Positions 388-57,725 of a stretch of DNA of 64,000 bases are shown here, in pieces (the first letter of the stretch is position 1; the number at the start of each line of letters is the position of its first letter). Source of the stretch: Euonymus europaeus. Lineage: Eukaryota; Streptophyta; Magnoliopsida; Celastrales; Celastraceae. The notes beneath the pieces are model-generated. The model was not told the origin of the DNA. It saw only the letters and a program-made list of their open reading frames with translations, and ran no database searches. The position numbers and the translations under genes were made by a program. Where the stretch lies: NCBI GenBank assembly GCA_963580455.1, contig OY756972.1, positions 13,097,001 through 13,161,000 of the forward strand, in the 5' to 3' direction.

Positions 388-390
388 AGC

Positions 391-400: not shown

Positions 401-401
401 T

Positions 402-1712: not shown

Positions 1713-2165
1713 CAACTCTCTCTATGGAGGAGCTTTTAACGGTTTTGTCCATTTGTCATAGAAAGTTGGTGTTTTGGCATCGAAATAATCTAGGAAGCTT
1801 ATACTCATAAAATTTAACATATAAGAACAATAAAAATTGTACACCGAACAACTTTGATGGTCCGAAGTTGCTCAACTCGCTCTATGGAGGAGCTTTTAAC
1901 GGTTTTGTCCATTTGTCATAGAAAGTTGGTGTTTTGGCATCGAAATAATCTAGGAAGCTTATACTCGTAAAATTTGACATAAAAGAACAATAAAAAGTCT
2001 ATCCCGAGCAACTTTGATAGTCCGAAGTTGCTCAACTCTCTCTATGGAGGAGCTTTTAACGGTTTTGTCCATTTGTCATAGAAAATTGGTGTTTTGGCAT
2101 CGAAATAATCTATGAAGCTTTAACTCGTAAAATTTGACATATAAGAACAATAAAAATTATACACC

Positions 2166-2193
2166 GAGCAACTTTGATAGTCCGAAGTTGCTC
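2166..2193 (+). repeat. Dyad symmetry inside the satellite monomer (example copy)
   Basis: GAGCAACTT (2166-2174) and AAGTTGCTC (2185-2193) are perfect reverse complements separated by 10 nt, so each such monomer can form a 9-bp stem with a 10-nt loop. The same dyad recurs once per monomer. In many copies the left arm reads GAACAACTT, which leaves one mismatch. In some right-array copies the pair CAACTTCG/CGAAGTTG extends the stem inwards. Confidence 0.85.
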
Positions 2194-35000: not shown

Positions 35001-36266
35001 CTATGGAGGAGCTTTTAACGGTTTTGTCCATTTGTCATAGAAAGTTGGTGTTTTGGAATCGAAATAATCTAAAAAGCATATACTCATAAAATTTGACATA
35101 TAAGAACAATAAAAATTGTACACCGAGCAACTTTGATGATCCGAAGTTGCTCAACTCTCTCTATGGAGGAGCTTTTAACGGTTTTGTCCATTTGTCATAG
35201 AAAGTTGGTGTTTTGGCATCGAAATAATCTAGGAAGCTTATACTCATAAAATTTGACATATAAGAACAATAAAAATTGTACACCGAACAACTTTGATGGT
35301 CCGAAGTTGCTCAACTCTCTCTATGGAGGAGCTTTTAACGGTTTTGTCCATTTGTCATAGAAAGTTGGTGTTTTGACATCCAAATAATCTAGGAAGCTTA
35401 TACTCATAAAATTTGACATATAAGAACAATAAAAATTGTACACCGAACAACTTTGATGGTCCGAAGTTGCTCAACTCTCTCTATGGAGGAGCTTTTAACG
35501 GTTTTGTCCATTTGTCATAGAAAGTTGGTTTTTTGGCATCGAAATAATCTAGGAAGCTTATACTCGTAAAATTTGACATAAAAGAACAACAAAAAGTCTT
35601 TCCCGAGCAACTTTGATAGTCCGAAGTTGCTCAACTCTCTCTATGGAGGAGATTTTAACGGTTTTGTCCATTTGTCATAGAAAATTGGTGTTTTGGCATC
35701 GAAATAATCTATGATGCTTTAACTCGTAAAATTTGACATATAAGAACAATAAAAATTATACACCGAGCAACTTTGATGGTCCGAAGTTGCCCAACTCTCT
35801 CTATGGAGGAGCTTTTAACGGTTTTGTCCATTTGTCATAGAAAGTTGGTGTTTTGGCATCGAAATAATCCAGGAAGCTTATACTCATAAAATTTGACATA
35901 TAAGAACAATAAAAATTGTACACCGAACAACTTTGACGGTCCAAAGTTGCTCAACTCTCTCTATGGAGGAGCTTTTAACGGTTTTGTCCATTTGTCATAG
36001 AAAGTTGGTGTTTTGGCATCGAAATAATCTAGGAAGCTTATACTCATAAAATTTGACATATAAGAACAATAAAAATTGTACACCGAACAACTTTGATGGT
36101 CCGAAGTTGCTCAACTCTCTCTATGGAGGAGCTTTTAACGGTTTTGTCCATTTGTCATAGAAAGTTGGTGTTTTGGCATCGAAATAATCTAGGAATCTTA
36201 TACTCATAAAATTTGACATATAAGAATAATAAAAATTGTACACCGAGCAACTTTGATGGTCCGAAG
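26021..36266 (+). repeat. Super-repeat copy C, truncated by the Sirevirus insertion
   Basis: Units are 26021-28420, 28421-30180 (11 monomers; four missing relative to copy B), 30181-32580, 32581-34980 and a partial 34981-36266. Private variants of copy B recur here at a fixed distance: ACTGGTAAAA at 19083/29483, CTCTTTATGG at 19317/29717, a TTTATCATAG variant at 22231/32631, CTGAACTACTT at 23604/34004, AACAACAAAAAGTC at 25186/35586, TTGCCCAACTC at 25388/35788 and AGGAATCTTA at 25791/36191. Copies B and C are therefore a recent segmental tandem duplication. Confidence 0.85.
36262..36266 (+). repeat. Target-site duplication, left copy (CGAAG)
   Basis: CGAAG directly precedes the LTR end TGTTGG at 36267 and is repeated directly after the other LTR at 49945-49949. 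A 5-bp duplication is standard for copia integrase. Joining the flanks gives the normal monomer sequence CCGAAGTTGCTC, which shows a simple insertion into the array. Confidence 0.93.
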
Positions 36267-37225
36267 TGTTGGATTGAATGGCACCACAAGAGGGAGGGTG
36301 AATTGTGTACTTAATCAAAAAATTAAGCTAAGTGATCACTTTTTAAATGTAGACAAGTTCAATATCAAATAGACCAATTTAAATCAATGAATAAGCATGC
36401 AAGTATAGAACAATTAGATTTACACCAAATGAGATTGTAATAGGCAGCAAAATCTGATTTATCACAATATTAATTCTAGCAACTTATATGGCAATTTCAG
36501 TGATGAATGCTATGCAAATGATATGCTAAATGAATTTGCTGGAAATTAAATAGAGACATGAGATTTAGAGTGGTTCGGCTTAACCCAAGCCTACATCCAC
36601 TACCCAAGTTTCACTTGGGATTTTCAAACACTCCACTAGAAAGATGGCTTTGCAAGGTCACCACCAACTTAGGGTTTCATCCAAGTTAACCCCAAACTTT
36701 TACAACCAAATGTGGTTTAAGCTCACCACAAACCCAACTCCAAATATAACTCGGTTTAAGCTCACCGAAAACTCAATCTACCATACATGTGGTTTTGGCT
36801 CACCACAAAACCCAATCAACAACAATAAAACTCAGATTTTGGCTTCTTTGTAGCCTGGTATGAGGTGAAGTTTTAGGCTCAAGAAATAGCTCTTTGGTAG
36901 CTGGATTTGTAAGTGGATAAGCTCAAATAATGCTCTTGAAGATTTGGTTTGAGAATGATAAGCACAAAGATTCAGATTTGAGATTTTGATGGCTAGGGTT
37001 TGTGAAACTTTGAAGTGTATAGGAACACATGAAAATTAGCTAACCTAAGGCTTGAATAATGAAAAAAGAGATGAAGAATGAAGCCTTTTATGTGCAGGAA
37101 ATGAGATTGCTCAACCAAGAAAATAACTCTTGAGAAAATGTACAGAAAGATCAAGAATGGCTCAAGAGGAACAATGCTTGAGAAAAAGAAAGATAAATTA
37201 GCCAAGCATCGAGGCAAGAGAGACT
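36267..37225 (-). repeat. 3' LTR, distal part (R/U5-side fragment)
   Basis: This aligns with the 5' LTR at 48157-49115 with about 24 scattered substitutions and a 1-bp indel (GTAGACAAG versus GTAAGACAAG). Alignment stops after AGACT at 37225, where the other LTR goes on with GGGGTTG. In the element's orientation it is the last 0.96 kb of the LTR, ending in CCAACA. Small open frames here, such as one beginning MALQGHHQL, also occur in the other LTR and are not genes. Confidence 0.9.
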
Positions 37226-37236
37226 AGATTATAAGC
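37226..37236. other. 11-bp filler at the left breakpoint of the inverted block
   Basis: AGATTATAAGC separates the LTR homology from the inverted satellite arm. It is not LTR sequence. It looks like two short satellite pieces in scrambled order (CTAGATTAT and TATAAGCTTC, both normal in the minus-strand monomer), joined by overlaps of 2-4 bases to each other and to both flanks. Confidence 0.65.
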
Positions 37237-40200
37237 TTCGGGATAGACTTTCTAATGTACTTCTATGTCAAATTTTACGAGTATAAGCTTCCTAGATTAT
37301 TTCGATGCCAAAATACAACCTTTCTATGGCAAACGGACAAAACCGTTAAAAGTCTCTCCATAGAGAGAGTTGAGCAACTTCGGACCAACAAAGTTCCTCA
37401 ATATACAATTTTTATTGTTCTTATATGTCAAATTTTATGAGTATAAGCTTCCTAGATTATTTCGATGCCAAAACAACAACTTTCTATGATAGATGGACAA
37501 AACCGTTAAAAGCTCCTCCATAGAGAGAGTTGAGCAACTTCAGACTATCAAAGTCGCTCAGGATAGAATTTTTATTCTTCTTATATGACAAATTTTATGA
37601 GTATAAGCTTCCTAGATTTTTTCGATGCCAAAGCACCAACTTTCTATGACAAATGGACAAAACCGTTAAAAGCTCCTCCATAGAGAGAGTTGAGCAACTT
37701 CGAAGCATTAAAGTTGTTCGGTGTACAATTTTCATTGTTCTTATATGTCAAATTTTAGGAGTATAAGCTTCCTAGATTATTTCGATGCCAAAACACCAAC
37801 TTTCTATGACAAATGGACAAAACTGTTAAAAGCTCCTCCATAGAGAGAGTTGAGCAACTTCGAAGTATCGAAGTTGTTCGGGATAGACTTTCTAATGTAC
37901 TTCTATGTCAAATTTTACGAGTATAAGCTTCCTAGTTTATTTCGATGCCAAAACACAACCTTTCTATGACAAACGGAAAAAACCGTTAAAAGTCTCTCCA
38001 TAGAGAGAGTTGAGCAACTTCGGACCAACAAAGTTCCTCAATATACACTTTTTATTGTTCTTCTATGTCAAATTTTATGAGTGTAAGCTTCATAGATTAT
38101 TTCGATGCCAAAACACCAACTTTCTATGACAGATGGACAAAACCGTTAAAAGCTCCTCCATAGAGAGAGTTGAGCAACTTCGGACTATCAAAGTTTCTCG
38201 GGATACACTTTTTATTATTCTTATATGTCAAATTTTATGAGTATAAGCTTCCTAGATTTTTTCGATGCCAAAACACCAACTTTCTATGACAAATGGACAA
38301 AACCATTAAAAGCACCTCCATAGAGAGAGTTGAGCAACTTCGGACCAACAAAGTTGCTCGGGATAGACTTTTTATTGTTCTTCTATGTCAAATTTTATGA
38401 GTGTAAGCTTCCTAGATTATTTCGATGCCAAAACACCAACTTTCTATGACAAATGGACGAAACCGTTAAGAGCACCTCCATAGAGAGAGTTGAGCAACTT
38501 CGGACCATTAAAGTTGTTCGGTGTACAATTTTCATTGTTCTTATATGTCAAATTTTAGGAGTATAAGCTTCCTAGATTATTTCGATGCCAAAACACCAAC
38601 TTTCTATGACAAATGGACAAAACCATTAAAAGCTCCCCCATAGAGAGAGTTGAGCAACTTCGGACAATCGAAGTTGTTCGGTGTACAATTTTTATTGTTC
38701 TTATATGTCGAATTTTAGGAGTATAAGCTTCCTAGATTATTTCGATGCCAAAACACCAACTTTCTATGACAAATGGAGAAAACCGTTAGAAGCTTCTCTA
38801 TAGAGAGAGTTGAGCAACTTCGGACCATCAAAAGTTGCTCGGTGTACAATTTTTATTGTTCTTATATGTCAAATTTTATTAGTATAAGCTTCCTAGATTA
38901 TTTCGATGCCAAAACACCAATTTCTATGACAAATGGACAAAACCGTTTAAAGCTCCTCCATATAGATAGTTGAGCAACTTCGGACAATCAAAGTTGCTCG
39001 ATGTACAATTTTTATTGTTCTTATTTGTCAAATTTTATGAGTATAAGCTTCCAAGATTATTTCGATGCCAAAACACCAACTTTCTATGACAAATGGAGAA
39101 AACCGTTAAAAGCTCCTCCATAGAGAGAGTTGAGCAACTTCGGACCAACAAAGTTGCTCGGGATAGAATTTTTATTGTTCTTATATTTCAAATTTTATGA
39201 GTGTAAGCTTCCTAGATTATTTCGATGCCAAAACACCAACTTTCTATGACAAATGGACGAAACCGTTAAGAGCACCTCCATAGAGAGAGTTGAGCAACTT
39301 CGGACCATTAAAGTTGTTCGGTGTACAATTTTCATTGATCTTATATGTCAAATTTTAGGAGTATAAGGTTCATAGATTATTTCGATGCCAAACACCAACT
39401 TTCTATGACAAATGGAGAAAACCGTTAAAAGCTCCTCCATAGAGAGAGTTGAGCAACTTCGGACCAACAAAGTTGCTTGGAATACAAATTTTATTGTTCT
39501 TATATGTCAAATTTTATGACTGTAAGCTTCCTAGATTATTTCGATGCCAAAACACCAACTTTCTATGACAAATGGACAAAACCGTTAAAAGCTCCTCCAT
39601 AGAGAGAGTTGAGCAACTTCGGACCATCAAAAGTTGCTCGGTGTACAATTTTTATTGTTCTTATATGTCAAATTTTATTAGTATAAGCTTCCTAGATTAT
39701 TTGGATGCCAAAAAACCAATCTCTATGACAAATGGACAAAACCGTTAAAAGCACCTCCATTGAGAGAGTTGAGCAACTTCTGACCATCAAAGTTGCTCGG
39801 TGTACAATTTTTATTGTTCTTATATGTCAAATTTTATGAGTATAAGCTTCCTAGATTATTTCGATGCTAAAACACCAACTTTCTATGACAAATGGAGAAA
39901 ACCGTTAAAAGCTCCTCCATAGAGAGAGTTGAGAAACTTCGGACGATGAAAGTTGCTCGGTGTATAATTTTTATTGTTCTTATATGTCAAATTTTATGAG
40001 TATAAGCTTCATAGATTTTTTCGATGCCAAAACACTAACTTTCTATGACAAATGGACGAAACCGTTAAAAGCTCCGCCATAGAGAGAGTCGAGCAACTTC
40101 GGAATATGAAAGTTGCTCGGTGTACAATTTTTATTGTTCTTATATGTCAAATTTTATGAGTATAAGCTTTCTAGATTATTTCGATGCCAAAACAACAACT

Positions 40201-43200
40201 TTTTATGAAAAATGGACGAAACCGTTAAAAGCTCCTCCACAGAGAGAGTTGAGCAACTTCGGACTATCAAAGTTGCTCGGGATACACTTTTTATTGTTCT
40301 TATATGTCAAATTTTATGAGTATAAGCTTCATAGATTATTTCGATGCCAAAACACCTACTTTCTATGACAGATGGACAAAACCGTTAAAAGCTCCTCCAT
40401 AGAGAGAGTTTAGCAACTTCGGACTATCAAAGTCGCTCAGGATAGAATTTTTATTCTTCTTATATGACAAATTTTATGAGTATAAGCTTCCTAGATTTTT
40501 TCGATGCCAAAACACCAACTTTCTATGACAAATGGACAAAACCGTTAAAAGCTCCTCCATAGAGAAAGTTGAGCAACTTCGAAGCATTAAAGTTGTTCGG
40601 TGTACAATTTTCATTGTTCTTATATGTCAAATTTTAGGAGTGTAAGCTTCCTAGATTATTTCGATGCCAAAACACCAACTTTCTATGACAAATGGATAAA
40701 ACTGTTAAAAGCTCCTCCATAGAGAGAGTTGAGCAACTTCGAAGTATCAAAGTTGTTCGGGATAGACTTTCTAATGTACTTCTATGTCAAATTTTACGAG
40801 TATAAGCTTCCTAGATTATTTCGATGCCAAAACACAACCTTTCTATGGCAAACGGACAAAACCGTTAAAAGTCTCTCCATAGAGAGAGTTGAGCAACTCC
40901 GGACCAACAAAGTTCCTCAATATACAATTTTTATTGTTCTTATATGTCAAATTTTATGAGTATAAGCTTCCTAGATTATTTCGATGCCAAAACAACAACT
41001 TTCTATGATAGATGGACAAAACCGTTAAAAGCTCCTCCATAGAGAGAGTTGAGCAACTTCGGACTATCAAAGTCGCTCAGGATAGAATTTTTATTCTTCT
41101 TATATGACAAATTTTATGAGTATAAGCTTCCTAGATTTTTTCGATGCCAAAGCACCAACTTTCTATGACAGATGGACAAAACCGTTAAAAGCTCATCCAT
41201 AGAGAGAGTTGAGCAACGTCGGACTATCAAAGTTGATCGGGATACACTTTTTATTGTTCTTCTATGTCAAATTTTATGAGTGTAAGCTTCATAGATTATT
41301 TCGATGCCAAAACACCAACTTTCTATGACAGATGGACAAAACCGTTAAAAGCTCCTCCATAGAGAGAGTTGAGCAACTTCGGACCAACAAAGTTGCTCGG
41401 GATAGACTTTTTATTGTTCTTCTATGTCAAATTTTATGAGTGTAATCTTCCTAGATTATTTCGATGCCAAAACACCAACTTTCTATGACAAATGGACGAA
41501 ACCGTTAAGAGCACCTCCATAGAGAGAGTTGAGCAACTTCGGACCATTAAAGTTGTTCGGTGTACAATTTTCATTGTTCTTATATGTCAAATTTTAGGAG
41601 TATAAGTTTCCTAGATTATTTCGATGCCAAAACACCAACTTTCTATGACAAATGGACAAAACCATTAAAAGCTCCTCCATAGAGAGAGTTGAGCAACCTC
41701 GGACCATCGAAGTTGTTCGGTGTACAATTTTTATTGTTCTTATATGTCGAATTTTAGGAGTATAAGCTTCCTAGATTATTTCGATGCCAAAACACCAACT
41801 TTCTATGACAAATGGAGAAAACCGTTAGAAGCTTCTCTATAGAGATAGTTGAGCAACTTCGGACCATCAAAAGTTGCTCGGTGTACAATTTTTATTGTTC
41901 TTATATGTAAAATTTTATTAGTATAAGCTTCCTAGATTATTTCGATGCCAAAACACCAATTTCTATGACAAATGGACAAAACCGTTTAAAGCTCCTCCAT
42001 AGAGAGAGTTGAGCAACTTCGGACAATCAAAGTTGCTCGATGTACAATTTTTATTGTTCTTATTTGTCAAATTTTATGAGTATAAGCTTCCAAGATTATT
42101 TCGATGCCAAAACACCAACTTTCTATGACAAATGGAGAAAACCGTTAAAAGCTCCTCCATAGAGAGAGTTGAGCAACTTCGGACCAACAAAGTTGCTCGG
42201 GATAGAATTTTTATTGTTCTTATATGTCAAATTTTATGAGTGTAGGCTTCCTAGATTATTTCAATGCCAAAACACCAACTTTCTATGACAAATGGACGAA
42301 ACCGTTAAGAGCACCTCCATAGAGAGAGTTAAGCAACTTCGGACCATTAAATTTATTCGGTGTACAATTTTCATTGTTCTTATATGTCAAATTTTAGAAG
42401 TATAAGCTTCATAGATTATTTCGATGCCAAAACACCAACTTTCTATGACAAATGGAGAAAACCGTTAGAAGCTCCTCTATAGAGAGAGTTGAGCAACTTC
42501 GGACCAACAAAGTTGCTTGGTATACAATTTTTATTGTTCTTATATGTCAAATTTTATGAGTGTAAGCTTCCTAGATTATTTCGATGCCAAAACACCAACT
42601 TTCTATGACAAATGGACGAAACCGTTAAGAGCACCTCCATAGAGAGAGTTGAGCAACTTCGGACCATTAAAGTTGTTCGGTGTACAATTTTCATTGTTCT
42701 TATATGTCAAATTTTAGGAGTATAAGCTTCCTAGATTATTTCGATGCCAAAACACCAACTTTCTATGACAAATGGACAAAACCATTAAAAGCTCCTCCAT
42801 AGAGAGAGTTGAGCAACTTCGGACCATCGAAGTTGTTCGGTGTACAATTTTTATTGTTCTTATATGTCGAATTTTAGGAGTATAAGCTTCCTAGATTATT
42901 TCGATGCCAAAACACCAACTTTCTATGACAAATGGAGAAAACCGTTAGAAGCTTCTCTATAGAGAGAGTTGAGCAACTTCGGACCATCAAAAGTTGCTCG
43001 GTGTACAATTTTTATTGTTCTTATATGTCAAATTTTATTAGTATAAGCTTCATAGATTATTTCGATGCCAAAACACCAATTTCTATGACAAATGGACAAA
43101 ACCGTTTAAAGCTCCTCCATAGAGAGAATTTAGCAACTTCGGACAATCAAAGTTGCTCGATGTACAATTTTTATTGTTCTTATTTGTCAAATTTTATGAG

Positions 43201-43787
43201 TATAAGCTTCCAAGATTATTTCGATGCCAAAACACCAACTTTCTATGACAAATGGAGAAAACCGTTAAAAGCTCCTCCATAGAGAGAGTTGAGCAACTTC
43301 GGACCAACAAAGTTGCTTGGTATACAATTTTTATTGTTCTTATATGTCAAATTTTATGAGTATAAGCTTTCTAGATTATTTCGATGCCAAAACAACAACT
43401 TTTTTTGAGAAATGGACGAAACCGTTAAAAGCTCCTCCATAGAGAGAGTTGAGCAACTTCGGACCAACAAAGTTGCTCAGTGTACAATTTTTAGTGTTCT
43501 TATATTTCAAATTTTATGAGTATAAGCTTTCTAGATTATTTCGATGCCAAAACAACAACTTTTTTTGAGAAATGGACGAAACCGTTAAAAGCTCCTCCAT
43601 AGAGATAGTTGAGCAACTTCGGATCATCAAAGTTGCTCAGTGTACAATTTTTAGTGTTCTTATATGTCAAATTTTATGAGTATAAGCTTCATTGATTATT
43701 TCGATGCCAAAACACCAACTTTCTATGACAAATGGACGAAACCGTTAAAAGTTTCTCCATAGAGAGAGTTGAGCAACTTCGTGTTGA
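37237..43787 (-). repeat. Left arm of a 6.55-kb inverted repeat (satellite inserted in the 3' LTR)
   Basis: About 41 satellite monomers lie here in the opposite orientation to every other array in the window. The block is the reverse complement of 49939-56490: mirrored positions add up to 93726, changing to 93727 left of a 1-bp deletion at about 39390. I compared several stretches base by base and found identity or a single difference per stretch. The arm ends CTTCG + TGTTGA, which is the target-site duplication plus the first six bases of the 5' LTR in element orientation. It was therefore copied from the element's far flank after insertion. Repeated 61-116 codon open frames here are mirror images of those in the right arm and are not genes. 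Confidence 0.9.
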
Positions 43788-44341
43788 TTCATTTTTGAAA
43801 ATTCCTTTAAGATAGATATGGAAATGAATCAAAGGCTTTGAATAGGTGAGGATATGGAAAGAGGATTTTGTCCATAATGAAAAGATTATGTTTTGATTCA
43901 CCTCATATCAAACTTGTTTCCATATGTGACGTCTTGATCTTCCATTAATGAACTACCTTCATTGGATACTTCTTCAATTTTAAACTTGAGTTTGATCCTC
44001 TTCATCTACTGCTTTGTATTTCCATATTTGGATTGCTCTCCCATCTTCTTATTTTGGTTCCATTGTTTTGAACTTCTTGATGGAGATCTCATATGCCAAT
44101 GTCACCATGTCCATGTCATCTTGCCACATCATTATGTTCTTGATTGAAAGTTTCCATAAATAACACTTTCCATGAATAGAAGTGGCTGCACACAATTAAA
44201 CTCAAAGAATGCTTTGTAAGCCTTATTAGGCTTCATGCTTGTTAGTCCATATTATTTCCATAATCACATTATTCAAATATATGTAATAAATCAAAGATCA
44301 ATAAACATATATTTTGAAACATTCAAACCATGTATTCAATA
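43784..44341 (-). repeat. 3' LTR, proximal U3 fragment
   Basis: This aligns with the 5' LTR at 49387-49944 with about ten differences. In element orientation it is the first roughly 0.55 kb of the LTR. The LTR start reads TATTGAA instead of TGTTGAA, a G-to-A change in the terminal TG. Compared with the intact LTR, the bases equivalent to 49116-49386 are missing between the two 3' LTR fragments. Confidence 0.88.
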
Positions 44342-44354
44342 TTCTCCCCCTTTT
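44342..44354 (-). other. Polypurine tract adjoining the 3' LTR
   Basis: On the minus strand this reads AAAAGGGGGAGAA immediately before the LTR start, the primer site for plus-strand DNA synthesis. Confidence 0.85.
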
Positions 44355-44555
44355 GATGATTTCAAAATAACCTATGTAACTTTGATTTATTTCATCAAGT
44401 TACTCGCCCTTACATCAAGCTTCACTCAACATTCATTGCTCCCCCTTAATCTATGCATTTAGTTCAAAGTTGCATCCATTTTCTCCCCCTTTATTTTAGA
44501 AATGCATCTTAAAGACAAAATTAACACTTAAAAACACATAGAAACATTGAGTAAA
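44355..44555 (-). other. 3' non-coding segment with extra polypurine motifs
   Basis: Between the ancestral pol stop and the PPT are about 200 bp without a gene. On the minus strand they contain two further GGGGGAG motifs, AAAGGGGGAGAA (44481-44492) and TTAAGGGGGAGC (44438-44449), and a degraded one, GTAAGGGCGAGT (44402-44413). Multiple polypurine tracts upstream of the 3' LTR have been described as a feature of Sireviruses, which supports the lineage call. Confidence 0.7.
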
Positions 44556-44618
44556 TCAAGGAGTAAGGCGCATACCAAGATTTTCTCTTAGAAATTCAAA
44601 ACGATCTTGATTGAGAGG
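44556..44618 (-). pseudogene. Disconnected C-terminal tail of Pol after a premature stop
   Basis: The same frame continues for 20 codons after the TAA at 44619-44621 and ends at a TGA at 44556-44558. It reads PLNQDRFEFLRENLG and so on, the family's normal Pol C-terminus. The TAA replaces the lysine codon of the conserved LADILTKPL motif, a one-base nonsense change. Confidence 0.8.
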
Positions 44619-47600
44619 TTAAGTGAGTATATCAGCTAATTGATTCATTGTATTCACATACTCAACTTTAATTGTGCCTTTGTTCACATGATCCCTAATA
44701 AAGTGATGTCTAATATCTATATGCTTAGCCTTAGAATGATGTATGGGATTTTTAGAAAGACTAATAGCACTTGTATTATCACAATAAATAGGAATATCAG
44801 TCAAGATTAAACCAAAATCATATAATTGTTGTCTAATCCATAGGAGTTGTGCACAACAACTTCCAATGGCCATATATTCGGCTTCGGTGGTAGATAGGGC
44901 AACACTAGCTTGTTTCTTAGAAAACCAAGAAATAAGCATACTTCCTAAAAATTGGCAAGTACCCGAAGTACTCTTCCTATCTACCCTACATCCGGCATAG
45001 TCGGCATTACTATATGCAAGTAAATCAAATACTGAATTTTTGTCATACCATATGCCAAGAGTAGATGTATGTCTAAGGTACCTAAAGATTCTCTTAACCG
45101 CAAGAAAATGAGAATGCATAGGTTGACTCTGAAATCTAGCACACATGCACACACTAAACATTATATCCGGTCTACTAGATGTCAAATATAAAAGAGAACC
45201 AATCATGGATCTATACATTTTAGAATCATAAGGTTGTCCATTTTCATCTTTGTCAAGCTTAGTAGAGACACACATAGGAGTAGGAGAAGGGTTCAGATTT
45301 TCAAAACCAAACTTTTTAAACATATCATGAATATATTTGGTTTGACCAATATGTATGCCTTCCCTAGATTGTTTAACTTGCAACCCTAAAAAGAAGGTAA
45401 GCTCTCTCATCATGGACATTTCAAATTCACTTTGCATGCAAGATTCAAACTCTTTACACATAGCATCATTGGTAGCACCAAAAATAATGTCATCAACATA
45501 TATTTGCACAATAAGCATATCATGACTCTTTTCTTTTAAAAGTAGTGTGCTATCAATTCTTCCTCTTTTAAAACCATTTTGAATCAAGAATGATGAAAGT
45601 CTATCATACCATGCCCTAGGTGCTTGTTTCAAACCATATAAAGCTTTTGACAATTTATAAACATGGTTTGGAAATTTAGGATCTTCAAATTCGGGTGGTT
45701 GCTTTACATGCACATTTTCATTAATAAAACCATTCAAAAAGGCACTTTTGACATCCATTTGATAAAGTTTAAACCCCTTGAAACATGCAAATGCCATAAG
45801 CAACCTAATAGCTTCTAACCGAGCTACTGGTGCAAAGGTCTCTTCATAATCAATTCCTTCTTCTTGATTATAACCTTGTGCAACCAACCTAGCCTTGTTT
45901 CTAACAACTTCACCATTTTCATTCATTTTATTCTTAAACACCCATTTAGTTCCAATTATGGTTTGGTCTTTAGGTCTTGGAACTAAATGCCAAACTTCAT
46001 TCCTAGTGAATTGGTTCAATTCATCTTGCATGGCAACAATCCAATTATCATCAAGTAAAGCATCATCAACATTTCTAGGTTCAACTTGAGAAATGAAAGC
46101 ATATACATTATCCAAAATATTCACATCAACAAACAAAGCACCATTCATCAAATTGGCAACAATGTTATCATTCAAATCACTTATCACATTAGCATGCATA
46201 TCATCATTGGAAGATAAGTGTGATCTACGAGTTCTTACCCCTTGGTGCAAATCACCTATTATGAGATCTTTGGGATGCTTGTGCTTGTCCTTTACTTGTA
46301 ACCATGATGTAGGAGGAGCGGTCACATTCTCATTGGAAGCCATGGGTTCATCACTTGATACTTCAATGCTCATCGGAGGAGCTTGAATTTCATATATTGC
46401 CTTAGGTGTACCTTCATTTGTATTTTCCACATGCTTCTTATCTCCTTTTCTTGGATAATCGATTTTAGGAATTGAAGAGTCATCATCATCATTCAAGTTC
46501 AACTTCTCCAAACCTATCTCATTGTCATCATGCTCAATCAAAGGGTCAAATGCAAGTGTTTCAATAAATTTAACATGTATAGACTCCTCTATTTTCCTAG
46601 ATTTCAGATTGTAAACTCTATATGCCTTAGAAGTCAAAGAATAACCAACAAACAAATAAGGAGCAGATTTTGCATCAAATTTATCTAAGTCATCCTTAGT
46701 GTTTAACACATAGCCTTTGCATCCAAAAACTCTAAAGTGATCAATTCTAGGTTTTCTATCATTCCAAATTTCATAAGGTGTCTTATTAATTTTCTTTCTA
46801 ATAGACAACCTATTAACAACATAGCATGCACAATTTATAGCTTCAGCCCACAAGAACTTAGGTAAATCATTTTCACAAAGCATAGTCCTAGCAATTTCTT
46901 GTAAAGTCCTATTTTTCCTTTCTACTACCCCATTTTGTTGGGGTGTCCTAGGTGAAGAAAAATCATGCCTAATACCATATTCATCACATAATTCTATGAA
47001 TGCATGATTATCAAATTCACCTCCATGATCACTTCTAATTTTGCTAATGTTCATGTTCTTTTCATTTTGAAGTCTCTTGATTAGTTTTGAAAACTCGTGA
47101 ATTGTTTCATGTTTGTAAGCAAGAAAAATCACCCAAGAATATCTAGAATAGTCATCAACAAAGCATCTCAAATCTTTGCCTTGTTCATCATGGTTGCTCT
47201 TGGAGGTGGTTTGATCTCCATGACCAGATTTGAACTTTTCTTTCTTTGATTGGTGAAATGGTGTAGCACCATGCCTCTTCTTCTTATTTATCAAGTATCT
47301 CTTGAATTTTCTTGTCATAAGAGCAATCTCATCATCACTCAATTCTTCCTCACTATCTTCTTTGGAGGCAAATGCGATGCTCTTCTTTTTGGTATCCTCC
47401 TTCTTCACTTCTCTAGCTTTCATATTTGTCTCATAGACCATCAAGGATCCCACTAGCTCATCCAACTTTAAAACTTTGAGATCCTTAGCTTCTTGGATGG
47501 CGGTCACCTTGGCATCCCAACACTCCGGTAAGCTTCTCAAGTACTTTTGAACCTTTTCTTGGTTGGAGAAGATCTTACCTAATGATTCAAGAGAATTCAG

Positions 47601-48119
47601 AATATGTGTTAGTCTTATATCCATATCGATAATGGATTCATTGGGGTGCATGGAAAACAATTCATATGAATGCATGAGCATGTTTATCTTAGACTCTTTA
47701 ACTTGGTTTGTACCCTCATGCTTCATTTCTAGTCTCTTCCACATCTCTTTGGGTGAAACACATGTAGAAAAATGTTTGGCCTCCATTCTATTTAAGGCAT
47801 TGTAAAGTATAGACATAGCTTTAGCATTCAATGACATTTTCTTCTTATCATTATCATCCAATTTATTCCTAGGTTTAGGAACAATTTTCTCTACATCACC
47901 AACCTTGATGGTGGTGGTAGGCTCATGAGGTCCATCCTCTATAACATACCATAGTTCAATATCTATTGAAATAAAATACAACCTCATTCTCATTTTCCAA
48001 TGATCAAAGTCCTCTCCATCAAAGAATGGAGGTCTAACATTGGATTGGCCTTCTAACCCATGATCATGTTTACCACTACTAGATGCCATCATACAAATCA
48101 CAAATAATGCACAAGACAA
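44619..48119 (-). CDS. Defective Gag-Pol polyprotein (in-frame internal deletion)
   Basis: One open frame of 1166 codons fuses capsid-like Gag to a partial Pol. The first ATG is at 48119, but MASSSGKHDHG at residues 10-20 looks like the true Gag start (ATG at 48092 or 48089). Domains: Gag about 10-316 (DHWKMRM, EGTNQVKESKI, SDDEIAL); partial integrase about 317-520 (VDDYSRY, SDHGGEF with Asp364, NGVVERKNRTL with Glu400); linker 520-690; reverse transcriptase about 691-950 (DVKSAFLNG, YVDD at 874-877); RNase H about 1036-1166 (YCDN at 1112-1115, ALSTTEAEY). Gag at about residue 317 runs directly into the middle of integrase. The CCHC zinc knuckle, the aspartic protease, the integrase HHCC domain and the segment with the first catalytic Asp are all missing. 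RNase H has SNAD where family members have SDAD. The frame ends at a premature TAA. The product could not be processed or integrate DNA on its own. Confidence 0.9.
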   Translation of the reverse strand: MSCALFVICMMASSSGKHDHGLEGQSNVRPPFFDGEDFDHWKMRMRLYFISIDIELWYVIEDGPHEPTTTIKVGDVEKIVPKPRNKLDDNDKKKMSLNAKAMSILYNALNRMEAKHFSTCVSPKEMWKRLEMKHEGTNQVKESKINMLMHSYELFSMHPNESIIDMDIRLTHILNSLESLGKIFSNQEKVQKYLRSLPECWDAKVTAIQEAKDLKVLKLDELVGSLMVYETNMKAREVKKEDTKKKSIAFASKEDSEEELSDDEIALMTRKFKRYLINKKKRHGATPFHQSKKEKFKSGHGDQTTSKSNHDEQGKDLRCFVDDYSRYSWVIFLAYKHETIHEFSKLIKRLQNEKNMNISKIRSDHGGEFDNHAFIELCDEYGIRHDFSSPRTPQQNGVVERKNRTLQEIARTMLCENDLPKFLWAEAINCACYVVNRLSIRKKINKTPYEIWNDRKPRIDHFRVFGCKGYVLNTKDDLDKFDAKSAPYLFVGYSLTSKAYRVYNLKSRKIEESIHVKFIETLAFDPLIEHDDNEIGLEKLNLNDDDDSSIPKIDYPRKGDKKHVENTNEGTPKAIYEIQAPPMSIEVSSDEPMASNENVTAPPTSWLQVKDKHKHPKDLIIGDLHQGVRTRRSHLSSNDDMHANVISDLNDNIVANLMNGALFVDVNILDNVYAFISQVEPRNVDDALLDDNWIVAMQDELNQFTRNEVWHLVPRPKDQTIIGTKWVFKNKMNENGEVVRNKARLVAQGYNQEEGIDYEETFAPVARLEAIRLLMAFACFKGFKLYQMDVKSAFLNGFINENVHVKQPPEFEDPKFPNHVYKLSKALYGLKQAPRAWYDRLSSFLIQNGFKRGRIDSTLLLKEKSHDMLIVQIYVDDIIFGATNDAMCKEFESCMQSEFEMSMMRELTFFLGLQVKQSREGIHIGQTKYIHDMFKKFGFENLNPSPTPMCVSTKLDKDENGQPYDSKMYRSMIGSLLYLTSSRPDIMFSVCMCARFQSQPMHSHFLAVKRIFRYLRHTSTLGIWYDKNSVFDLLAYSNADYAGCRVDRKSTSGTCQFLGSMLISWFSKKQASVALSTTEAEYMAIGSCCAQLLWIRQQLYDFGLILTDIPIYCDNTSAISLSKNPIHHSKAKHIDIRHHFIRDHVNKGTIKVEYVNTMNQLADILT

Positions 48120-48139
48120 TTACTTTTATATGCAAGGAA

Positions 48140-48154
48140 CCTGCTCCGATAACA
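48140..48154 (-). other. Primer binding site, initiator-Met tRNA type
   Basis: On the minus strand this reads TGTTATCGGAGCAGG, 2 nt after the 5' LTR. It matches the complement of the plant initiator methionine tRNA 3' end (TGGTATCAGAGCAGG) at 13 of 15 positions. It would prime minus-strand DNA synthesis; the two mismatches suggest decay. Confidence 0.85.
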
Positions 48155-48156
48155 CT

Positions 48157-49944
48157 TGTTGGATTGAATGGCACCACAAGAGGGGGGTGAATTGTGTACT
48201 TAATCAAAAAATTAAGCTAAGTGATCACTTTTTAAATGTAAGACAAGTTCAATCTCAAATAGACCAATTTAAATCAATGAATAAGCATGCAAGTATAGAA
48301 CAATCAAATTAACACCAAATAAGATTGTAATAGGCAGCAAAATCTGATTTATCACAATATTAATTCTAGCAACTTATATGGCAATTTCAATGATGAATGC
48401 TATACAAATGATATGCTAAATGAATTTGCTGGAAATTAAATAGAGACAAGAGATTTAGAGTGGTTCGGCTTAACCCAAGCCTACATCCACTACCCAAGTT
48501 TCACTTGGGATTTTCAAACACTCCACTAGAAAGATGGCTTTGCAAGGACACCACCAACTTAGCGTTTCATCCAAGTTAACCCCAAACTTTTACAACCAAA
48601 TGTGGTTTAAGCTCACCACAAACCCAACTCCAAATACAACTCGGTTTAAGCTCACCGAAAACTCAATCTACCATACAAGTGGTTTTGGCTCACCACAAAA
48701 CCCAATCAACAACAATAAAACTCAGATTTTGGCTTCTTTGTAGCCTGGTATGAGGTGAAGTTTTAGGCTCAAGAAATAGCTCTTTGGTAGCTGGATTTGT
48801 AAGTGGATAAGCTCAAATAATGCTCTTGAAGATTTGGTTTGAGAATGATAAGCACAAAGATTCATATTTGAGATTTTGGTGGCTAGGGTTTGTGAAACTT
48901 TGAACTGTATAGGAACCCACGAAAATTAACTAACCCAAGGCTTGAATAATGAAAAAAGAGATGAAGAATGAAGCCTTTTATGTGCAGGAAATCAGATTGC
49001 TCAACCAAGAAAATAACTCTTGAGAAAATGTAGAGAAAGATCAAGAATGGCTCAAGAGGAACAATGCTTGAGAAAAAGAAAGATAAATTAGCCAAGCATC
49101 GAGGCAAGAGAGACTGGGGTTGTATTTTTAGTGAAGGAATAAATATTGCAGCTCTATATGGACCGTTTGATTGAAAAGCAAGGCAATATGGTCACTTGAT
49201 CAAGGCTACACGTTTTTGACATTTAGAGCAAGAGAATATGTGTCTTTAAAGCTAAACAAATATTGTTCTATGAGTTTAGAAAGTGAATCAATCAAAGGAG
49301 TCAAACCATGTATATTAGGAAGGAAGCTTAGGATTTGAATCAAATATATTCTAGGAAATTTTGGCCATAAAGAAGAGATTATGATTTTGATTAATTTTTG
49401 AAAATTGATTTAAGATAGATATGGAAATGAATCAAAGGCTTTGAATAGGTGAGAATATGGAAAGAGGATTTTGTCCAAAATGAAAGGATTATGTTTTGAT
49501 TCACCTCATATCAAACTTGTTTCCATATGTGACGTCTTGATCTTCCATTAATGAACTACCTCCATTGGATACTTCTTCAATTTTAAACTTGAGTTTGATC
49601 CTCTTCATCTACTGCTTTGTATTTCCATATTTGGATTGCTCTCCCATCTTCTCATTTTGGTTCCATTGTTTTGAACTTCTTGATGCAGATCTCATATGCC
49701 AATGTCACCATGTCCATGTCATCTTGCCACATCATTATGTTCTTGATTGAAAGTTTCCATAAATAACACTTTCCATCAATAGAAGTGGCTACACACAATT
49801 AAACTCAAAGAATGCTTTGTAAGCCTTATTAGGCTTCATGCTTGTTAGTCCATATTATTTCCATAATCACATTATTCAAATATATGTAATAAATCAAAGA
49901 TCAATAAACATATATTTTGAAACATTCAAACCATGTATTCAACA
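48157..49944 (-). repeat. 5' LTR, intact (1788 bp)
   Basis: In element orientation it begins TGTTGAATAC (plus-strand end 49944) and ends CAATCCAACA (48157). Those are good inverted ends, with the PBS 2 nt beyond. It keeps the stretch 49116-49386 that is missing from the 3' LTR. No clear TATA box stands out; the minus strand has a weak CATATAGAG at about 49153-49161. Open frames of 60-75 codons inside it have no recognisable product. Confidence 0.92.
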
Positions 49945-49949
49945 CGAAG
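49945..49949 (+). repeat. Target-site duplication, right copy (CGAAG)
   Basis: CGAAG directly follows the 5' LTR end and matches 36262-36266. A third, inverted copy (CTTCG at 43777-43781) sits inside the 3' LTR because it was carried by the inverted duplication. Confidence 0.93.
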
Positions 49950-51139
49950 TTGCTCAACTCTCTCTATGGAGAAACTTTTAACGGTTTCGTCCATTTGTCA
50001 TAGAAAGTTGGTGTTTTGGCATCGAAATAATCAATGAAGCTTATACTCATAAAATTTGACATATAAGAACACTAAAAATTGTACACTGAGCAACTTTGAT
50101 GATCCGAAGTTGCTCAACTCTCTCTATGGAGGAGCTTTTAACGGTTTCGTCCATTTCTCAAAAAAAGTTGTTGTTTTGGCATCGAAATAATCTAGAAAGC
50201 TTATACTCATAAAATTTGAAATATAAGAACACTAAAAATTGTACACTGAGGAACTTTGTTGGTCCGAAGTTGCTCAACTCTCTCTATGGAGGAGCTTTTA
50301 ACGGTTTCGTCCATTTCTCAAAAAAAGTTGTTGTTTTGGCATCGAAATAATCTAGAAAGCTTATACTCATAAAATTTGACATATAAGAACAATAAAAATT
50401 GTATACCAAGCAACTTTGTTGGTCCGAAGTTGCTCAACTCTCTCTATGGAGGAGCTTTTAACGGTTTTCTCCATTTGTCATAGAAAGTTGGTGTTTTGGC
50501 ATCGAAATAATCTTGGAAGCTTATACTCATAAAATTTGACAAATAAGAACAATAAAAATTGTACATCGAGCAACTTTGATTGTCCGAAGTTGCTAAATTC
50601 TCTCTATGGAGGAGCTTTAAACGGTTTTGTCCATTTGTCATAGAAATTGGTGTTTTGGCATCGAAATAATCTATGAAGCTTATACTAAAAAAATTTGACA
50701 TATAAGAACAATAAAAATTGTACACCGAGCAACTTTTGATGGTCCGAAGTTGCTCAACTCTCTCTATAGAGAAGCTTCTAACGGTTTTCTCCATTTGTCA
50801 TAGAAAGTTGGTGTTTTGGCATCGAAATAATCTAGGAAGCTTATACTCCTAAAATTCGACATATAAGAACAATAAAAATTGTACACCGAACAACTTCGAT
50901 GGTCCGAAGTTGCTCAACTCTCTCTATGGAGGAGCTTTTAATGGTTTTGTCCATTTGTCATAGAAAGTTGGTATTTTGGCATCTAAATAATCTAGGAAGC
51001 TTATACTCCTAAAATTTGACATATAAGAACAATGAAAATTGTACACCGAACAACTTTAATGGTCCGAAGTTGCTCAACTCTCTCTATGGAGGTGCTCTTA
51101 ACGGTTTCGTCCATTTGTCATAGAAAGTTGGTGTTTTGG

Positions 51140-52372
51140 CATCGAAATAATCTAGGAAGCTTACACTCATAAAATTTGACATATAAGAACAATAAAAATT
51201 GTATACCAAGCAACTTTGTTGGTCCGAAGTTGCTCAACTCTCTCTATAGAGGAGCTTCTAACGGTTTTCTCCATTTGTCATAGAAAGTTGGTGTTTTGGC
51301 ATCGAAATAATCTATGAAGCTTATACTTCTAAAATTTGACATATAAGAACAATGAAAATTGTACACCGAATAAATTTAATGGTCCGAAGTTGCTTAACTC
51401 TCTCTATGGAGGTGCTCTTAACGGTTTCGTCCATTTGTCATAGAAAGTTGGTGTTTTGGCATTGAAATAATCTAGGAAGCCTACACTCATAAAATTTGAC
51501 ATATAAGAACAATAAAAATTCTATCCCGAGCAACTTTGTTGGTCCGAAGTTGCTCAACTCTCTCTATGGAGGAGCTTTTAACGGTTTTCTCCATTTGTCA
51601 TAGAAAGTTGGTGTTTTGGCATCGAAATAATCTTGGAAGCTTATACTCATAAAATTTGACAAATAAGAACAATAAAAATTGTACATCGAGCAACTTTGAT
51701 TGTCCGAAGTTGCTCAACTCTCTCTATGGAGGAGCTTTAAACGGTTTTGTCCATTTGTCATAGAAATTGGTGTTTTGGCATCGAAATAATCTAGGAAGCT
51801 TATACTAATAAAATTTTACATATAAGAACAATAAAAATTGTACACCGAGCAACTTTTGATGGTCCGAAGTTGCTCAACTATCTCTATAGAGAAGCTTCTA
51901 ACGGTTTTCTCCATTTGTCATAGAAAGTTGGTGTTTTGGCATCGAAATAATCTAGGAAGCTTATACTCCTAAAATTCGACATATAAGAACAATAAAAATT
52001 GTACACCGAACAACTTCGATGGTCCGAGGTTGCTCAACTCTCTCTATGGAGGAGATTTTAATGGTTTTGTCCATTTGTCATAGAAAGTTGGTGTTTTGGC
52101 ATCGAAATAATCTAGGAAACTTATACTCCTAAAATTTGACATATAAGAACAATGAAAATTGTACACCGAACAACTTTAATGGTCCGAAGTTGCTCAACTC
52201 TCTCTATGGAGGTGCTCTTAACGGTTTCGTCCATTTGTCATAGAAAGTTGGTGTTTTGGCATCGAAATAATCTAGGAAGCTTACACTCATAAAATTTGAC
52301 ATAGAAGAACAATAAAAAGTCTATCCCGAGCAACTTTGTTGGTCCGAAGTTGCTCAACTCTCTCTATGGAGG
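51140..52372 (+). repeat. Duplicated satellite block, copy 1 (offset about 3040 bp)
   Basis: This matches about 54180-55412. A marker is TAATCTTGGAAGC with AAATAAGAAC and TTGTACATCGAGC, seen at about 51629 and 54669 and also at about 50509, so the core of the block also recurs with an offset of 1120 bp (seven monomers). Boundaries are approximate. Confidence 0.7.
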
Positions 52373-52559
52373 AGCTTTTAACGGTTTTGTCCATCTGTCA
52401 TAGAAAGTTGGTGTTTTGGCATCGAAATAATCTATGAAGCTTACACTCATAAAATTTGACATAGAAGAACAATAAAAAGTGTATCCCGATCAACTTTGAT
52501 AGTCCGACGTTGCTCAACTCTCTCTATGGATGAGCTTTTAACGGTTTTGTCCATCTGTC

Positions 52560-54205
52560 ATAGAAAGTTGGTGCTTTGGCATCGAAAAAATCTAGGAAGC
52601 TTATACTCATAAAATTTGTCATATAAGAAGAATAAAAATTCTATCCTGAGCGACTTTGATAGTCCGAAGTTGCTCAACTCTCTCTATGGAGGAGCTTTTA
52701 ACGGTTTTGTCCATCTATCATAGAAAGTTGTTGTTTTGGCATCGAAATAATCTAGGAAGCTTATACTCATAAAATTTGACATATAAGAACAATAAAAATT
52801 GTATATTGAGGAACTTTGTTGGTCCGGAGTTGCTCAACTCTCTCTATGGAGAGACTTTTAACGGTTTTGTCCGTTTGCCATAGAAAGGTTGTGTTTTGGC
52901 ATCGAAATAATCTAGGAAGCTTATACTCGTAAAATTTGACATAGAAGTACATTAGAAAGTCTATCCCGAACAACTTTGATACTTCGAAGTTGCTCAACTC
53001 TCTCTATGGAGGAGCTTTTAACAGTTTTATCCATTTGTCATAGAAAGTTGGTGTTTTGGCATCGAAATAATCTAGGAAGCTTATACTCCTAAAATTTGAC
53101 ATATAAGAACAATGAAAATTGTACACCGAACAACTTTAATGCTTCGAAGTTGCTCAACTCTCTCTATGGAGGAGCTTTTAACGGTTTTGTCCATTTGTCA
53201 TAGAAAGTTGGTGTTTTGGCATCGAAAAAATCTAGGAAGCTTATACTCATAAAATTTGTCATATAAGAAGAATAAAAATTCTATCCTGAGCGACTTTGAT
53301 AGTCCGAAGTTGCTAAACTCTCTCTATGGAGGAGCTTTTAACGGTTTTGTCCATCTGTCATAGAAAGTAGGTGTTTTGGCATCGAAATAATCTATGAAGC
53401 TTATACTCATAAAATTTGACATATAAGAACAATAAAAAGTGTATCCCGAGCAACTTTGATAGTCCGAAGTTGCTCAACTCTCTCTGTGGAGGAGCTTTTA
53501 ACGGTTTCGTCCATTTTTCATAAAAAGTTGTTGTTTTGGCATCGAAATAATCTAGAAAGCTTATACTCATAAAATTTGACATATAAGAACAATAAAAATT
53601 GTACACCGAGCAACTTTCATATTCCGAAGTTGCTCGACTCTCTCTATGGCGGAGCTTTTAACGGTTTCGTCCATTTGTCATAGAAAGTTAGTGTTTTGGC
53701 ATCGAAAAAATCTATGAAGCTTATACTCATAAAATTTGACATATAAGAACAATAAAAATTATACACCGAGCAACTTTCATCGTCCGAAGTTGCTCAACTC
53801 TCTCTATGGAGGAGCTTTTAACGGTTTTCTCCATTTGTCATAGAAAGTTGGTGTTTTAGCATCGAAATAATCTAGGAAGCTTATACTCATAAAATTTGAC
53901 ATATAAGAACAATAAAAATTGTACACCGAGCAACTTTGATGGTCAGAAGTTGCTCAACTCTCTCAATGGAGGTGCTTTTAACGGTTTTGTCCATTTGTCA
54001 TAGAGATTGGTTTTTTGGCATCGAAATAATCTAGGAAGCTTATACTAATAAAATTTGACATATAAGAACAATAAAAATTGTACACCGAGCAACTTTTGAT
54101 GGTCCGAAGTTGCTCAACTCTCTCTATGGAGGAGCTTTTAACGGTTTTGTCCATTTGTCATAGAAAGTTGGTGTTTTGGCATCGAAATAATCTAGGAAGC
54201 TTACA
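52560..54205 (+). repeat. Duplicated satellite block, copy 1 (offset 3520 bp)
   Basis: About ten monomers recur at 56080-57725, exactly 22 monomers downstream, with only scattered substitutions. Shared unusual variants are GAAGTACATTAGAAAGTC, CCTGAGCGACTTTG and TTTTTCATAAAAAGTTG. Both copies are represented in the left inverted arm (the second only up to its 56490 end), so this duplication predates the inversion. Confidence 0.8.
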
Positions 54206-55412
54206 CTCATAAAATTTGACATATAAGAACAATAAAATTTGTATTCCAAGCAACTTTGTTGGTCCGAAGTTGCTCAACTCTCTCTATGGAGGAGCTTTTA
54301 ACGGTTTTCTCCATTTGTCATAGAAAGTTGGTGTTTTGGCATCGAAATAATCTATGAACCTTATACTCCTAAAATTTGACATATAAGATCAATGAAAATT
54401 GTACACCGAACAACTTTAATGGTCCGAAGTTGCTCAACTCTCTCTATGGAGGTGCTCTTAACGGTTTCGTCCATTTGTCATAGAAAGTTGGTGTTTTGGC
54501 ATCGAAATAATCTAGGAAGCTTACACTCATAAAATTTGAAATATAAGAACAATAAAAATTCTATCCCGAGCAACTTTGTTGGTCCGAAGTTGCTCAACTC
54601 TCTCTATGGAGGAGCTTTTAACGGTTTTCTCCATTTGTCATAGAAAGTTGGTGTTTTGGCATCGAAATAATCTTGGAAGCTTATACTCATAAAATTTGAC
54701 AAATAAGAACAATAAAAATTGTACATCGAGCAACTTTGATTGTCCGAAGTTGCTCAACTATCTATATGGAGGAGCTTTAAACGGTTTTGTCCATTTGTCA
54801 TAGAAATTGGTGTTTTGGCATCGAAATAATCTAGGAAGCTTATACTAATAAAATTTGACATATAAGAACAATAAAAATTGTACACCGAGCAACTTTTGAT
54901 GGTCCGAAGTTGCTCAACTCTCTCTATAGAGAAGCTTCTAACGGTTTTCTCCATTTGTCATAGAAATTTGGTGTTTTGGCATCGAAATAATCTAGGAAGC
55001 TTATACTCCTAAAATTCGACATATAAGAACAATAAAAATTGTACACCGAACAACTTCGATTGTCCGAAGTTGCTCAACTCTCTCTATGGGGGAGCTTTTA
55101 ATGGTTTTGTCCATTTGTCATAGAAAGTTGGTGTTTTGGCATCGAAATAATCTAGGAAGCTTATACTCCTAAAATTTGACATATAAGAACAATGAAAATT
55201 GTACACCGAACAACTTTAATGGTCCGAAGTTGCTCAACTCTCTCTATGGAGGTGCTCTTAACGGTTTCGTCCATTTGTCATAGAAAGTTGGTGTTTTGGC
55301 ATCGAAATAATCTAGGAAGCTTACACTCATAAAATTTGACATAGAAGAACAATAAAAAGTCTATCCCGAGCAACTTTGTTGGTCCGAAGTTGCTCAACTC
55401 TCTCTATGGAGG
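54180..55412 (+). repeat. Duplicated satellite block, copy 2 (offset about 3040 bp)
   Basis: This is the second copy of the block at about 51140-52372, 19 monomers downstream. After about 55412 the two diverge (GGAGGTGCTTTTAATGG here, GGAGGAGCTTTTAACGG in copy 1). Boundaries are approximate. Confidence 0.7.
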
Positions 55413-56079
55413 TGCTTTTAATGGTTTTGTCCATTTGTCATAGAAAGTTGGTGTTTTGGCATCGAAAAAATCTAGGAAGCTTATACTCATAAAATTTGAC
55501 ATATAAGAATAATAAAAAGTGTATCCCGAGAAACTTTGATAGTCCGAAGTTGCTCAACTCTCTCTATGGAGGAGCTTTTAACGGTTTTGTCCATCTGTCA
55601 TAGAAAGTTGGTGTTTTGGCATCGAAATAATCTATGAAGCTTACACTCATAAAATTTGACATAGAAGAACAATAAAAAGTGTATATTGAGGAACTTTGTT
55701 GGTCCGAAGTTGCTCAACTCTCTCTATGGAGAGACTTTTAACGGTTTTTTCCGTTTGTCATAGAAAGGTTGTGTTTTGGCATCGAAATAAACTAGGAAGC
55801 TTATACTCGTAAAATTTGACATAGAAGTACATTAGAAAGTCTATCCCGAACAACTTCGATACTTCGAAGTTGCTCAACTCTCTCTATGGAGGAGCTTTTA
55901 ACAGTTTTGTCCATTTGTCATAGAAAGTTGGTGTTTTGGCATCGAAATAATCTAGGAAGCTTATACTCCTAAAATTTGACATATAAGAACAATGAAAATT
56001 GTACACCGAACAACTTTAATGCTTCGAAGTTGCTCAACTCTCTCTATGGAGGAGCTTTTAACGGTTTTGTCCATTTGTC

Positions 56080-57725
56080 ATAGAAAGTTGGTGCTTTGGC
56101 ATCGAAAAAATCTAGGAAGCTTATACTCATAAAATTTTTCATATAAGAAGAATAAAAATTCTATCCTGAGCGACTTTGATAGTCTGAAGTTGCTCAACTC
56201 TCTCTATGGAGGAGCTTTTAACGGTTTTGTCCATCTATCATAGAAAGTTGTTGTTTTGGCATCGAAATAATCTAGGAAGCTTATACTCATAAAATTTGAC
56301 ATATAAGAACAATAAAAATTGTATATTGAGGAACTTTGTTGGTCCGAAGTTGCTCAACTCTCTCTATGGAGAGACTTTTAACGGTTTTGTCCGTTTGCCA
56401 TAGAAAGGTTGTATTTTGGCATCGAAATAATCTAGGAAGCTTATACTCGTAAAATTTGACATAGAAGTACATTAGAAAGTCTATCCCGAACAACTTTGAT
56501 ACTTCGAAGTTGCTCAACTCTCTCTATGGAGGAGCTTTTAACAGTTTTATCCATTTGTCATAGAAAGTTGGTGTTTTGGCATCGAAATAATCTAGGAAGC
56601 TTATACTCCTAAAATTTGACATATAAGAACAATGAAAATTGTACACCGAACAACTTTAATGCTTCGAAGTTGCTCAACTCTCTCTATGGAGGAGCTTTTA
56701 ACGGTTTTGTCCATTTGTCATAGAAAGTTGGTGTTTTGGCATCGAAAAAATCTAGGAAGCTTATACTCATAAAATTTGTCATATAAGAAGAATAAAAATT
56801 CTATCCTGAGCGACTTTGATAGTCCGAAGTTGCTAAACTCTCTCTATGGAGGAGCTTTTAACGGTTTTGTCCATCTGTCATAGAAAGTAGGTGTTTTGGC
56901 ATCGAAATAATCTATGAAGCTTATACTCATAAAATTTGACATATAAGAACAATAAAAAGTGTATCCCGAGCAACTTTGATAGTCCGAAGTTGCTCAACTC
57001 TCTCTGTGGAGGAGCTTTTAACGGTTTCGTCCATTTTTCATAAAAAGTTGTTGTTTTGGCATCGAAATAATCTAGAAAGCTTATACTCATAAAATTTGAC
57101 ATATAAGAACAATAAAAATTGTACACCGAGCAACTTTCATATTCCGAAGTTGCTCGACTCTCTCTATGGCGGAGCTTTTAACGGTTTCGTCCATTTGTCA
57201 TAGAAAGTTAGTGTTTTGGCATCGAAAAAATCTATGAAGCTTATACTCATAAAATTTGACATATAAGAACAATAAAAATTATACACCGAGCAACTTTCAT
57301 CGTCCGAAGTTGCTCAACTCTCTCTATGGAGGAGCTTTTAACGGTTTTCTCCATTTGTCATAGAAAGTTGGTGTTTTAGCATCGAAATAATCTAGGAAGC
57401 TTATACTCATAAAATTTGACATATAAGAACAATAAAAATTGTACACCGAGCAACTTTGATGGTCAGAAGTTGCTCAACTCTCTCAATGGAGGTGCTTTTA
57501 ACGGTTTTGTCCATTTGTCATAGAGATTGGTTTTTTGGCATCGAAATAATCTAGGAAGCTTATACTAATAAAATTTGACATATAAGAACAATAAAAATTG
57601 TACACCGAGCAACTTTTGATGGTCCGAAGTTGCTCAACTCTCTCTATGGAGGAGCTTTTAACGGTTTTGTCCATTTGTCATAGAAAGTTGGTGTTTTGGC
57701 ATCGAAATAATCTAGGAAGCTTACA
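56080..57725 (+). repeat. Duplicated satellite block, copy 2 (offset 3520 bp)
   Basis: This is the second copy of 52560-54205. It straddles the end of the inverted-repeat arm at 56490. It diverges from copy 1 after CTTACACTC at about 57725. Confidence 0.8.

Follow-up and report, generated by a model that had tools for sequence, protein, structure and literature searches.

Plants are known to patch double-strand breaks with filler DNA by synthesis-dependent strand annealing (SDSA), as described in the available sections of PMC4423477, which also cite Wicker, Buchmann and Keller (2010), and excerpts of PMC12231562 describe plant end joining by polymerase theta that leaves microhomology and templated insertions. 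Inverted stretches have also been found inside satellite DNA. Arabidopsis centromeric arrays contain short inverted regions and strand switches (passages of PMC9757041), and in Tribolium madens kilobase-sized inverted satellite subarrays recur as macro-dyad symmetries with thousands of near-identical inversion sites (portions of PMC13081366).

Here we analyzed a 64-kb window of the Euonymus europaeus genome (C16:13097001-13161000, from a 443-Mb assembly in 30 contigs) in which a Copia retrotransposon carries, inside its own 3' LTR, a 6.55-kb inverted copy of the satellite that flanks its other side. As in the plant filler DNA treated in the sections of PMC4423477, foreign DNA would have been copied into a break, whereas here the template is a 6.55-kb satellite tract from the immediate flank, taken in inverted orientation, and the copy sits in the LTR of the element adjoining that flank. 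The junctions share few-base microhomology and possibly templated filler with the polymerase theta products in the excerpts of PMC12231562. Like the Arabidopsis centromeres of PMC9757041, the locus has an inverted stretch inside a plant satellite array, but whereas the passages of that paper come without breakpoints, we could resolve the donor as well as both junctions and assign a relative date. Kilobase satellite subarrays face each other as in the portions of PMC13081366 on Tribolium madens, although here the event is apparently a single one and a retrotransposon lies between the arms. Among the titles and abstract openings of the open-licence literature, we found no case of an inverted satellite patch with a retrotransposon LTR as its recipient. 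An earlier note on this DNA had supposed the configuration to be undescribed, and within that literature this stands for the exact combination, but the component events were already known. Our best reading is that the event is of a known kind while its setting is unusual and well dated.

Most of the window consists of a 160-bp satellite. One 23-mer of it has 82,401 exact matches in the genome (36,812 + 45,589), which points to a major and probably centromeric satellite. Outside the present assembly, the 23-mer did not turn up in the papers, viral contigs or genome contigs searched. Beside the higher-order repeat of the left array (Table 1), the right array (49945-64000) shows a weaker 19-monomer period, and monomer variants are side-specific, with 215 of 215 left monomers and 86 of 87 right monomers assigning to their own side. 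The Copia element sits in this array on the minus strand (36267-49944), and joining the two flanks without it restores the monomer phase at a spacing of 160.

Assignment of the element to Copia follows from its two LTRs, the TG...CA termini of the 5' LTR, a 5-bp target-site duplication and a Copia domain order with integrase ahead of reverse transcriptase. At its inner terminus the 3' LTR has TA in place of TG. Next to the 5' LTR lies a primer-binding-site-like motif, TGTTATCGGAGC, which resembles an initiator-Met tRNA primer site. The 1,166-aa open frame has Pfam matches to PF14223 (residues 52-236), PF00665 (315-393) and PF07727 (707-949). No Pfam match to zinc-knuckle, protease or GAG-pre-integrase families was found in this frame, leaving the coding set for autonomy incomplete; many related proteins, unlike this frame, carry PF22936 and PF13976, and the DNA of a relative, L030, diverges from the element near internal position 998. 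Proteins related to the frame come from Citrus, Carya, Cannabis and others and are distant. The pol frame is open yet internally deleted. The gag and integrase-reverse transcriptase parts are fused in a single frame that is intact despite 2.1% LTR divergence.

Table 1. Window positions of the retrotransposon, its satellite surroundings, the inverted arms and their junctions
Feature	Position	Strand	Basis or remark
Left satellite array, 215 monomers of ~160 bp, 15-monomer (2.4-kb) higher-order repeat	1713..36266	+	TRF, offset identities
Target-site duplication CGAAG, left copy	36262..36266	+	Sequence, empty-site reconstruction
3' LTR, element-3' part	36267..37225	-	97.8% to 48157-49115; native part may extend to 37228
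Left-junction filler, 8-11 bp	37226..37236	.	37226-37228 perhaps native LTR; overlaps satellite words CTAGATTAT and TATAAGCTTC
Left arm	37237..43787	-	Reverse-oriented copy of right satellite flank, inverted target duplication and LTR tip
Inverted target-site duplication CTTCG within left arm	43777..43781	-	
TTGA, 4-bp microhomology common to LTR tip and native LTR (right junction)	43784..43787	.	
3' LTR, element-5' part	43784..44341	-	43784-44339 98.0% to 49387-49942; final two bases set by eye
Polypurine tract adjoining 3' LTR	44342..44356	-	Sequence
Open frame, 1,166 aa: gag, partial integrase core, SH3-like, reverse transcriptase	44619..48119	-	Pfam
Primer-binding-site-like TGTTATCGGAGC, adjoins 5' LTR	48143..48154	-	
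5' LTR, 1,788 bp, TG...CA	48157..49944	-	
Right arm, donor of the copy (5' LTR tip and satellite flank)	49939..56490	+	
Target-site duplication CGAAG, right copy	49945..49949	+	Sequence

The two arms, 6,551 bp and 6,552 bp long, show 14 substitutions and a single 1-bp indel between them, 15 differences in all by BLAST and global pairwise alignment, and are 99.77% identical across 6.55 kb. Aligning the left arm to the reverse complement of the right returned the same arm limits that the earlier note had proposed, and the 14 mismatches and 1-bp gap agree with its description of a mirror broken by one 1-bp indel and less than 1% substitutions. The core between them (43788-49938) measures 6,151 bp, in line with its figure of about 6.15 kb. 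A MAFFT alignment of the arms was discarded in favor of BLAST and global pairwise alignment, having shifted by whole monomers to give 2,933 difference columns. Within the window, the runner-up inverted match longer than 1.5 kb reached 93.0%. When 40 of 7,118 first-look candidates were scored in the genome, the arm's initial 564 bp matched at 100% at the two arms only, with lesser matches of 97% and 94% within the two arms and of at most 93% elsewhere. The adjacent right flank is the sole near-identical source of the left arm found in the window and, among the 40 of 7,118 candidates scored, in the genome, and it supplies the identifiable template expected of a templated insertion.

At its right end the left arm carries the inverted target-site duplication CTTCG and, directly after it, the LTR tip TGTTGA (43782-43787). 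As the arm ends in the element's own target duplication and LTR tip, it was copied from the right flank of the element after integration, as the earlier note had argued, and the matching adjacent flank agrees. That note had also reported the inverted duplication and a 6-nt tip. Both are present, but four of the six tip bases are also native LTR; because TTGA belongs to both, the LTR tip rests on two extra bases together with the target duplication. The LTRs of two relatives, L030 and L033, continue differently past TTGA, and the passage from LTR into tip is therefore genuine.

The arm splits the 3' LTR into two pieces (36267-37225 and 43784-44339), so that it is indeed lodged in the element's own 3' LTR as previously claimed. 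The counterpart of 49116-49386 in the 5' LTR is absent from the 3' LTR. At the left break the LTR of relative L033 reads GAGACTAGA; three of the filler bases (37226-37228) may therefore be native, and the loss amounts to 268-271 bp. The earlier note mentions neither this loss nor the filler, the internal deletion of the pol frame or the 257-bp inverted block described below. In a simple scan, the sole TATA-like word of the LTR, at position 786, falls within this stretch (LTR positions 559-829), and the 3' LTR may therefore lack a promoter. A 27-mer across the right junction occurs once in the genome with at most one mismatch allowed.

Both junctions have the anatomy expected of a templated insertion, with TTGA microhomology on the right and filler (37226 or 37229 to 37236) on the left. 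In arm orientation, the satellite words CTAGATTAT and TATAAGCTTC together cover 37226-37236, overlapping each other, the LTR and the arm by 2-3 bases. Random 11-mers tiled equally well in 871 of 200,000 trials, and for the 8-bp version, with three bases given to the LTR, random 8-mers did so in 8,819 of 200,000. This tiling suggests that the filler may have originated in templated satellite hops.

By divergence, the arm has about one tenth the age of the LTR split. The LTRs differ at 32 of 1,514 positions (2.1%) and the arms at 14 of 6,551 (0.21%), a ratio of 0.10 (0.05-0.19; Fisher p = 7e-14), in keeping with the earlier description of the duplication as young. Substitution rates in plants are 0.7-1.3e-8 per site and year. 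At these assumed rates the element would date back about 0.8-1.5 million years, compared with about 80-150 thousand years for the arm; of these values the age ratio alone is rate-independent, and concerted evolution could distort it. Compared with the monomer consensus, 7 of the 14 substitutions are deviations in the left arm and 7 in the right, where a match to the consensus does not prove the older state. The even split fits mutation in both arms after copying. The same counts led us to reject error-prone copying as the chief cause of the differences, since copying errors would have accumulated in the left arm. Of the 14 substitutions between the arms, 11 are transversions, and the LTR pair has 17 among its 32. 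Both numbers are small, and the satellite background is rich in transversions too (transition fraction 0.37 right, 0.43 left). Each arm comprises roughly 41 monomers, and no whole monomer has been gained or lost between the two. Neighboring 2.4-kb units of the left array differ at 25 of 8,756 positions over one stretch, which points to array turnover of similar age to the arm nearby.

Across the 260 kb around the locus (C16:13000001-13260000), the satellite runs on a single strand except for the left arm and one 257-bp block, counting pieces of at least 50 bp; large inverted blocks are thus rare there. The 257-bp block (C16:13186116-13186372; L021:6116-6372) sits about 25 kb beyond the right edge of the window, is not accompanied by a retrotransposon and has its best source at 98.8% identity 1.6 kb off, making it more diverged than the arm. 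A genome-wide search for direct strand flips with one head-to-head pattern, which covers an estimated less than one tenth of junction phases, returned 0 matches. The 260 kb hold two other insertions, one a nest of LTR elements spanning 18.3 kb and the other a solo LTR of 2,264 bp. All three insertions coincide with breaks between array variants, and near-identical five-monomer blocks spanning them numbered 0, 0 and 0. We considered the element as a barrier to satellite homogenization and found this unsupported, as 325 of 1,239 inner positions also lack spanning blocks at the same threshold. The nest (C16:13080410-13098709) includes window positions 1-1710 and has an inner pair of 2,266 bp at 99.1%. 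The solo LTR (C16:13162813-13165076) is 99.1% identical to that inner pair and flanked by TCTCT.

Our preferred account begins with integration of the Copia element into the 160-bp satellite array. Much later, a double-strand break about one tenth as old as the element would have opened the 3' LTR with loss of about 270 bp, and one broken end would have primed on the element's right flank, in inverted orientation, via very short homology. Some 6.55 kb would then have been synthesized before the copy was sealed to the second end through microhomology and a short filler, a course of the SDSA type with microhomology-mediated closure. We infer the break and the priming end, and as for the enzymes, a replicative polymerase may have made the long tract while its ends may have been closed by end joining of the polymerase theta type. 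Templated inserts made by polymerase theta are short, and in contrast to these the 6.55 kb here needs longer synthesis. We are confident that some templated copying took place after integration, whether by break repair (SDSA) or by fork switching, and a one-off SDSA-type break repair that copied an inverted local template is, in our judgment, its probable form. Fork stalling and template switching (FoSTeS/MMBIR) would have the nascent strand leave the 3' LTR, make short satellite hops, switch to the opposite strand to copy the right flank, and return at TTGA about 270 bp on, without a two-ended break. Short filler, 4-bp microhomology and an inverted local template all fit this route too, and the sequence gives no means of telling it from SDSA, as both leave the same product; the hops, however, lose weight once three filler bases are given to the LTR. 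We regard it as possible but somewhat unlikely.

Three other explanations were weighed. The locus lies within a very large satellite and was examined as assembled sequence alone, conditions under which an assembly or fold-back read artefact might arise. A missed-adapter fold-back read gives a palindrome without a spacer, whereas a 6.15-kb core separates the arms. An artefact would also show no differences between arms in place of 15, with the substitutions split 7/7, nor does it account for junctions with an LTR deletion, microhomology and filler, and the surrounding 260 kb contain no N; we judge it very improbable. Template switching during LTR element replication has been described (parts of PMC1950507) and could in principle yield a chimera formed in reverse transcription or brought in with the element, but the arm holds local flank and target duplication, has about a tenth of the age of the LTR split and has a right junction found once in the genome, and we give this origin almost no credence. 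Finally, the arms might be a selected satellite dyad acting through a hairpin, a cruciform or dsRNA. Arms of 6.5 kb could pair, and kilobase inverted satellite subarrays in Tribolium are claimed to be structural in the portions of PMC13081366. Recurrence of that kind was not seen in what was searched: the 260 kb hold one large and one 257-bp inverted piece, and the right junction is unique in the genome. The junctions moreover resemble repair scars. We find selection for such a dyad scarcely plausible, and any folding, RNA or centromeric function of the arms, including the hairpin, cruciform or dsRNA proposed in the earlier note, would be conjecture. The structure is probably a repair scar and not a working device.

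The locus offers a legible example of how a satellite array can gain an inverted block, complete with donor, recipient, deletion, junctions and a date from the LTR clock. Its arms also form a frozen pair of about 41 monomers and thereby a direct handle on point mutation versus array turnover. In fission yeast, centromeric inverted repeats feed isochromosome formation (sections of PMC10813616). A broader idea, which we put forward as speculation and rather doubt, is that retrotransposons in centromeric satellite nucleate strand switches, with breaks in LTRs patched by inverted copies of the flank, as a general source both of the inverted blocks of plant centromeres and of inverted repeats prone to forming isochromosomes.

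A 945-bp LTR query matched at least 14 other places in the genome at full or near-full length with 96-98% identity, as well as partial ones, among 40 of 78 candidates scored; these places include C8, C9, C12 and C13. We examined 14 stretches around such LTRs, mostly on one side, and 9 were outward-facing. Six of these nine LTR starts border on satellite, either of this type or of a diverged one, suggesting that the Copia family of this element may favor satellite.
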